From a virus: DNA of 41,337 nt. The stretch covers positions 1-41,337 of the IMG/VR virus record IMGVR_UViG_3300005356_000329; one strand, written 5' to 3'. Below are positions 40,005 through 41,113 of this stretch, in pieces. The notes below the pieces were generated by a model, which made no database searches, was not told where the DNA came from, and saw nothing but the letters and a program-made list of their open reading frames with translations. The stretch's first letter is position 1, and every line of letters starts with the position of its first letter. A program made the translations under genes and the position numbers.

Positions 40005-40166
40005 GTGAAGGAGTCTTTTAGGTGCGCGGGCTGTGGTGCTCTCTTGTTCAAAGCGGCGCCATCAGCGATATCCGGGCCGATCGAAATCAAGTGCCGGCGC
40101 TGCCGGCAATTCAACATTCTACGGCCTTTGAGCCCCACCAAACCGACCGCCGAGGGAGCGGCATAG
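40005..40166 (+). CDS. com: Com-like zinc-finger translational regulator
   Basis: This 53-aa protein starts at GTG 40005 with TTAGG upstream. It has two CxxC pairs (C7-x2-C10 and C30-x2-C33) in the Com arrangement: MKESFRCAGCGALLFK, then GPIEIKCRRCRQFNILRPLS. In Mu, Com binds a stem-loop in the mom mRNA and allows mom translation. Here it ends 13 nt before a cytosine methyltransferase, so that mRNA is its likely target. It lies in a different frame from both overlapping frames of the next gene. Confidence 0.88.
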   Translation: MKESFRCAGCGALLFKAAPSAISGPIEIKCRRCRQFNILRPLSPTKPTAEGAA

Positions 40167-40179
40167 GGGACAAAGCCTT

Positions 40180-41106
40180 GTGGACTTACGTACCAACTTC
40201 CGCCCTCAATCGGGCGATCTGTTCGGCATCTCACTCTGCGCTGGATACGCTGGTCTCGACCTCGGCCTGCACATCGCCGAACCCAACTACCGAACTGTGG
40301 CTTTCGTCGAGCGGGAAAGCCACGCGGCGGCAACTCTCGTGGCGAGGATGGCGGACCAGGCCCTGGGTGAAGCGCCTATCTGGGACGATCTTAGAACCTT
40401 CGATGGCCGGCCATGGTGTGGCCGCGTTCATCTCGTCTCTGCCGGCTATCCCTGCCAACCCTTCAGCTACGCCGGCCGGCGAGGCGGTAAGGACGATCCA
40501 CGACATCTCTGGCCCGATGTCGCCCGAATCGTGGAGGAGGCAGCGCCGGAGTGGGTCTTTTGCGAGAACGTCGAGGGGCACCTGTCACTGGGATACGCCG
40601 AGGTCGCGGCCGACCTTCGACGCATGGGCTACGACCCAAAGGCGGGCCTGTTCACGGCGCGAGAGGTCGGCGCTCGCCACCGCCGGCGCCGGCTCTTTAT
40701 CCTGGCCCACTCCAACAGCGTCAGACGCCGGCTATATCCCGGACCTGGTGGTGGAGGCGGGTCGGGTCGGCATAACGTCGCCGACGGACATCAGCGCGGG
40801 GAGCGGAGGACAATACTCCCTGGAGCGGTCGACGCGCGTCTGGACGAAGCTCTGGCTGGTGTTGCGCGCGTTGGGCGTCTCGATGGCGAGCCTGACGACC
40901 CCATCTTCGCTCCCGGTCCGGGTGAGCTTCAAGAATGGGAACGGCTGCTTCTACGCCGGCCTGATCTCCAACCCGCAATTCTACGAGCTGATGATGGGTT
41001 GGCCGATCGGGTGGACCGCACCAGAGGCGCCGGTAATGGGGTTTCCAGCCTGGCTGCAGCGCTCGCGTGGGCGGTTCTCAAGACTGCTCACGGAATTCCA
41101 GGATGA
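40180..41106 (+). CDS. C5-cytosine DNA methyltransferase
   Basis: This 308-aa enzyme transfers a methyl group from S-adenosylmethionine to cytosine C5. Motifs in order: I SLCAGYAGLDLGL (18-30), IV GYPCQPFS with nucleophile C92, VI ENV (129-131), VIII ARHRRRRLF (165-173) and X GNGVSSLAAALAW (285-297). The recognition region (about 176-260) is Gly/Arg-rich. The start is GTG 40180 with GGGGA 9 nt upstream. No restriction enzyme gene is nearby, so it is probably an orphan phage methylase against host restriction. The 3' half has weaker third-position GC than the +1 frame. Confidence 0.88.
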   Translation: MDLRTNFRPQSGDLFGISLCAGYAGLDLGLHIAEPNYRTVAFVERESHAAATLVARMADQALGEAPIWDDLRTFDGRPWCGRVHLVSAGYPCQPFSYAGRRGGKDDPRHLWPDVARIVEEAAPEWVFCENVEGHLSLGYAEVAADLRRMGYDPKAGLFTAREVGARHRRRRLFILAHSNSVRRRLYPGPGGGGGSGRHNVADGHQRGERRTILPGAVDARLDEALAGVARVGRLDGEPDDPIFAPGPGELQEWERLLLRRPDLQPAILRADDGLADRVDRTRGAGNGVSSLAAALAWAVLKTAHGIPG

Positions 41107-41113
41107 CGGCTAG
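40697..41113 (+). other. Overlapping +1 frame with protein-like sequence within the methyltransferase gene
   Basis: The +1 frame relative to the methyltransferase is open from 40022 to TAG 41111-41113. From about 40697 it reads SWPTPTASDAGYIPDLVVEA and ends ISNPQFYELMMGWPIGWTAP EAPVMGFPAWLQRSRG. WPTPTASD and NPxFxExMMGxPxGW resemble C-terminal parts of other phage DNA methylases. Third-position GC here is much higher than in the methyltransferase frame. I see no clear start codon with a ribosome site, so expression would need frameshifting or an internal GTG. Confidence 0.45.

Follow-up and report, generated by a model that had tools for sequence, protein, structure and literature searches.

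The phage locus described here carries, within a single stretch of 930 bases, two reading frames for two different proteins of about 310 residues each, which we call alpha (frame 0) and beta (frame +1). Comparison across homologues shows that both frames are coding, that they have separate starts and that the motifs of a C5-cytosine methyltransferase are split between alpha and beta. In our reading, which we hold at a probability of about 0.82 on the strength of sequence comparisons, the two are complete genes whose products together would make one C5-cytosine methyltransferase, an obligate enzyme of two polypeptides.

The two reading frames

In the window (the whole stretch of 41,337 nucleotides that was analysed), alpha occupies positions 40180 to 41106 of the plus strand, on which all features of the locus lie. 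It has a GTG start and 308 residues, and it is identified as a C5-cytosine methyltransferase catalytic subunit by Pfam (PF00145 DNA_methylase over residues 17-182, 1.2e-28), by PHROG 363 (residues 17-302, 9e-51) and by its AlphaFold model. The frame carries the methyltransferase motifs from I to VIII as well as X, whose GNGV stands at residues 285-288 as the preliminary description had stated: motif I at about 40228-40269, motif IV (GYPCQPFS, with its PCQ) at 40444-40467, motif VI (ENV) at 40564-40572, motif VIII (HRRRRLFILA) at 40678-40707 and motif X at 41032-41043, together with a Rossmann-like catalytic domain. The model reproduces a catalytic domain of the M.HaeIII/M.HhaI type, with a match over about 174 residues, and is mostly unordered at residues 183-234. 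In the alignment of homologues, residues 1-177 and 243-300 are conserved and about 178-240, between motifs VIII and X, are not. A target-recognition region and a motif IX between motifs VIII and X of the same chain were not found in alpha; both are in the +1 frame.

Beta, a putative specificity subunit, extends from 40178 to 41113, starts with TTG and comprises 311 residues beginning M-W-T-Y-V-P. The two start codons overlap in the sequence TTGTG (40178-40182), with the TTG of beta at 40178-40180 and the GTG of alpha at 40180-40182. The +1 reading from WPTPTASD through NPQFYELMMGWPIGWT to FPAWLQRSRG, ending at 41113, is present as first described, and so is its stronger third-position GC (0.81 vs 0.57 in frame 0 over 40697-41098). 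That description had the frame open from about 40697, which holds as far as it goes, but the frame runs without a stop from 40022 to 41113 and dual coding begins some 170 codons farther upstream. Two parts of beta stand out. A WPTPT or target-recognition-like region at 40703-40918 falls where alpha is unconserved, and there beta is the dominant frame, as judged from codon-position variability and the alignment of alpha. A motif-IX-like segment, NPQFYELMMGWPIGWT at 40970-41017, with the pattern NPxFxExMGWPxGWT, lies over the DDGLADRVD of alpha just before motif X, and is assigned from a profile match and from the codon use at Gly273 of alpha.

Selection on both frames

A set of 157 homologous loci with 138 distinct C-termini was collected from IMG/VR and GTDB, and as a null for stop codons the codons of alpha were shuffled synonymously and the stops arising in the +1 frame counted. 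Over the 138 distinct homologues, one stop was observed against 194 expected in the first 165 codons, which precede motif VIII, and three against 59 in the C-terminal part; as homologues share kinship, these counts are not independent events. The same procedure gave 168 stops for 165 expected in 12 other genes of the window, so the shuffling null is well calibrated. In 135 of the 138 homologues at least 80% of what follows motif VIII is open in the +1 frame, with a median of 136 codons, and the median open length of the +2 frame over the same part is 14 codons. Stops or drift in the +1 frame among homologues had been named as what would refute the idea, and the outcome of this check speaks for dual coding. 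These figures bear on whether the +1 frame could be an untranslated shadow of alpha, open by base composition, as happens in GC-rich genomes with few stops in some alternative frames; from the window alone, indeed, the probability of finding no stop is about 0.17 in each half. The homologue-wide stop test, the synonymous constraint and the start conservation described below make such a shadow extremely improbable, and GC content is no explanation for the open frame since phages of low GC (Paenibacillus, Lactobacillus and Bacteroides) carry the pair too.

The synonymous sites of alpha, whose analysis had also been suggested beforehand, proved strongly constrained in blocks. Expressed as a fraction of the saturation expectation, change at the fourfold sites of conserved fourfold-degenerate codons is 0.17 at codons 1-10, a low value that arises partly by construction through the sequence selection at the start. 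It is 0.32-0.56 at codons 41-80 and 0.50-0.58 at codons 141-160, and comes close to saturation (about 0.94) in codons 11-30 and 91-110. Between 40694 and 40873 variation is highest at the third position of beta codons and lowest at that of alpha codons, and between 40919 and 41098 both frames are held. Where motifs IX and X overlap, alpha reads GAT GGG xTG GCC: Gly273 is encoded by GGG in 135 of 135 sequences (for a background of 18%), Asp272 by GAT in 116 of 116 and Ala275 by GCC in 130 of the 132 with alanine, which is the codon choice that MGWP in beta requires. Stop, synonymous-site and codon tests thus agree in finding purifying selection for both frames over the same nucleotides. The +1 frame might instead be what is left of an older methylase end, since replaced by the frame-0 end, and its resemblance to the ends of other phage methylases would fit such a relic. 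This idea is contradicted by this conservation and is the least probable of all the readings considered, given that relics decay, that the +1 frame is the better conserved one in 40694-40873, and that it has been kept in the 41 groups into which 114 of the sequences fall at 70% alpha identity. A few homologues do combine an intact alpha with a broken beta (L133, with a stop at codon 3, and L072 and L147, with early stops), so that some copies may be dead, as natural beta-null alleles, or else contain sequencing errors.

The start of beta was analysed in the 114 distinct homologues that carry its W...P signature, and a beta-frame start codon was found at the same place in all of them. In 86 it stands directly before the W, forming NTGTG with the alpha start (40 TTG, 26 GTG, 20 ATG and no CTG). 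In the other 28 the codon before the W is NCG or NCA, and in every one of these an ATG for beta lies one codon upstream. Conservation of W and P within the N-terminal consensus M-W-x-[YF]-x-P is partly by construction, since W, P and a T or C preceding the start of alpha were the criteria by which the 114 were chosen, but the choice of start codon is free of this selection and the stop counts use all 138 sequences without it. In 31 sequences no alternative start exists between the upstream stop and the beta start, so that the start is forced, and no internal beta-frame start was found to be conserved in more than 50% of the sequences. Relative to the beta start, the GTG of alpha is placed at +2 in 86 cases and at -4 in 25; with both starts within a few bases of each other, alpha and beta overlap almost entirely.

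A conserved start at the beginning of the locus also bears on a programmed +1 frameshift after motif VIII, which would yield a fusion of alpha with the target-recognition region besides alpha itself, and which the preliminary description had entertained as a source of two C-termini. The order of the frames fits (motifs I-VIII, then WPTP to motif IX), and single-chain enzymes with such an order exist. Nevertheless, with a start of its own for beta in 114 of 114 sequences and an N-terminal half that is open and under selection upstream of motif VIII, no frameshift is needed, and the fusion product would lack motif X; we regard this mechanism as very unlikely. The option of overprinting, by contrast, was the right one, and these comparisons confirm true dual coding over the full length of the gene rather than over its last 139 codons only. 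Beta is thus taken as coding on the basis of the stop test, the conserved start codon, the synonymous constraint and the family matches that follow.

The +1-frame protein and the proposed enzyme

All 53 aligned beta sequences matched PHROG 1008, labelled 'DNA methyltransferase', which bears out the earlier remark on a likeness between the +1 frame and parts of other methylases from phages. Moreover, the beta segment NPQFYELMMGWPIGWT aligns with the motif IX region of methylases that have IX and X in one chain (probability 94.6%, E 7e-8), and residues 274-306 of alpha give a weak profile match (39.9%, E 3e-4) to the X region of such methylases. In Gordonia phage MelBins, LPTP repeats, LNxxFAEWMM..P.G and GNGV occur in a single chain with motifs I-VIII, and in Mycobacterium phage Peaches (gp76) and Streptomyces phage Euratis (34) those elements make up a separate downstream chain that includes motif X. 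Upstream of the WPTP region beta is conserved in blocks, among them M-W-x-[YF]-x-P and RPLSWxGWxTRPW..LSGT. Searching Pfam and the PDB with beta returned no methyltransferase and only chance matches, such as the MS2 coat protein, and tblastn of its C-terminus against phage records gave nothing at 1e-5; relatives were reached through IMG/VR, GTDB and profiles. Modelled by AlphaFold without alpha, beta gave a poor result (mean pLDDT 50.7) that does not confirm the fold of the target-recognition region.

Since beta matches the part of single-chain methylases with the target-recognition region and motif IX, and alpha the part with motif X, the natural reading would be a heterodimer in which alpha is catalytic and beta provides recognition plus motif IX. 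We infer translation of both chains, their assembly, the need for both parts, the specificity and the role of the methylation along the following lines. Alpha would hold the SAM-binding and catalytic motifs I-VIII and X without a conserved target-recognition region, and beta would supply that region and motif IX. Translation of each frame would begin at a start codon of its own, with the overlap of these codons in TTGTG. The chains would then assemble into an active heterodimer methylating the DNA of the phage, and of the lysogen, and the modification would presumably serve evasion of host restriction. As a guess, the part of beta upstream of WPTP may act as a scaffold for alpha. A bolder proposal, which we think rather doubtful, is that this N-terminal half forms a new domain that has a function of its own, and that initiation at two starts two bases apart, possibly steered by Com, sets the ratio of alpha to beta.

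Beta could also be translated and do something other than confer specificity, for instance act as an inhibitor, help in evading restriction or serve as a chaperone of alpha. Its N-terminal half is without a methyltransferase homologue of known structure, and 'DNA methyltransferase' is only an annotation label on PHROG 1008, both of which leave room for such roles. We consider them unlikely, as the WPTP/MGWPxGW region of beta sits between motifs VIII and X in single-chain methylases, precisely where alpha is without any conserved region.

Relatives, genomic setting and distribution

In the enzyme M.EcoHK31I the beta reading frame lies inside alpha in an alternative frame, begins at an internal start and encodes 176 residues; in the phage locus beta is likewise encoded within alpha, in frame +1, but spans the whole of it, with a start codon overlapping that of alpha. 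As summarized in PMC3404938, citing Lee, Kam and Shaw 1995, M.EcoHK31I carries motifs I-VIII and X on alpha and motif IX on a second, smaller polypeptide, and both are needed for methylation. Sequence and profile comparison gives the phage pair the same split, shared also with M.EaeI. The summary in PMC3404938 places the predicted target-recognition region of M.EcoHK31I in alpha, whereas the conserved region of this kind is in beta here. The setting differs too: the pair follows Com in a Mu-like phage, and no neighbouring restriction enzyme was noticed. M.AquI, according to the same source, is also one enzyme from two polypeptides, with both IX and X in the second chain (PMC3404938); in the phage locus motif X is kept on alpha, and the overlap between the genes is complete. 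The pairs gp77/gp76 of Mycobacterium phage Peaches and 33/34 of Streptomyces phage Euratis look AquI-like. The same register and motif split are seen in nested genes of Paenibacillus larvae phages (gp62/gp63 of BN12) and in PHROGs 363 and 1008, both genes being annotated as DNA methyltransferase in some records, although in the P. larvae phages beta has 234 residues and starts inside alpha, and the +1 frame upstream contains stops. The locus is of the M.EcoHK31I kind, from which it differs in its full-length beta, its overlapping starts, a target-recognition-like region that lies in beta and a phage setting with com. A literature search with few subscription papers within its reach returned no report of such dual coding in phages.

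The window belongs to a Mu-like phage (Mu portal, gp45, gp48 and baseplate J), and a complete MoeA-like molybdopterin gene at its left end (120-1310) is probably host flank of a prophage. Just upstream of alpha and beta, a gene with a GTG start (40005-40166, 53 residues) encodes a Com-like zinc ribbon (Pfam PF10122 Zn_ribbon_Com, 7.6e-6, above the cut-off; PHROG translational regulator / gpCom), and a similar C..C/C..C zinc ribbon precedes 72 of the 114 homologues. As in com-mom of phage Mu, a Com-like gene directly precedes a DNA-modification gene after the tail genes, but here the next gene is a C5-methyltransferase pair instead of mom, whose place the pair thus takes. A Com-dependent hairpin like that of mom was considered and is not supported, RNA folding round the shared start giving no more structure than shuffled sequences (mean z 0.02, mononucleotide shuffles).

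The pair is conserved in phages or prophages of several phyla. Among 398 genomes sampled from the phylum to which one homologue belongs, 26 gave beta matches. At every confident match alpha overlaps beta in exactly the register seen here, which recurs in phages of Paenibacillus, Lactobacillus, Bacteroides and Bordetella and in a Klebsiella element. In phages of Gram-positive hosts beta is shorter and starts inside alpha, so that the full-length beta with overlapping starts is one variant. Few long overlapping gene pairs in prokaryotes are described as established, and such pairs have long been controversial (PMC9927249); being widespread, with a clear register, mapped starts and a natural readout in DNA methylation, alpha and beta make overprinting directly testable.

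Database records are uneven in this regard, some annotating alpha only, some beta only and some both, but usually one of the two, so that many phage and prophage entries for a 'DNA cytosine methyltransferase' would name one subunit only. Codon-recoded expression of such a gene would destroy beta and could yield a false 'inactive' result. Beta is annotated instead of alpha in Acidovorax phage Alfacinha3 (gp46), the cyanophage Synechococcus phage Ssp-JY39 and Sphingomonas paeninsulae (WP_239025738.1) (L223, L224, L181). In the short methylases of Pseudomonas phage PS-1 and Vibrio phage 1.091.O (L225:1501-2205, L226:1492-2214), the +1 frame keeps only E-W-[LM]-M-G-W-P-x-x-W over the DGMAxxVxR of alpha, which may represent a minimal beta with motif IX and nothing else. 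Finally, genes 75/76 of Mycobacterium phage Seabastian (L175:1510-2269) represent a methylase split between motifs VI and VIII, in overlapping frames and at a different split point.
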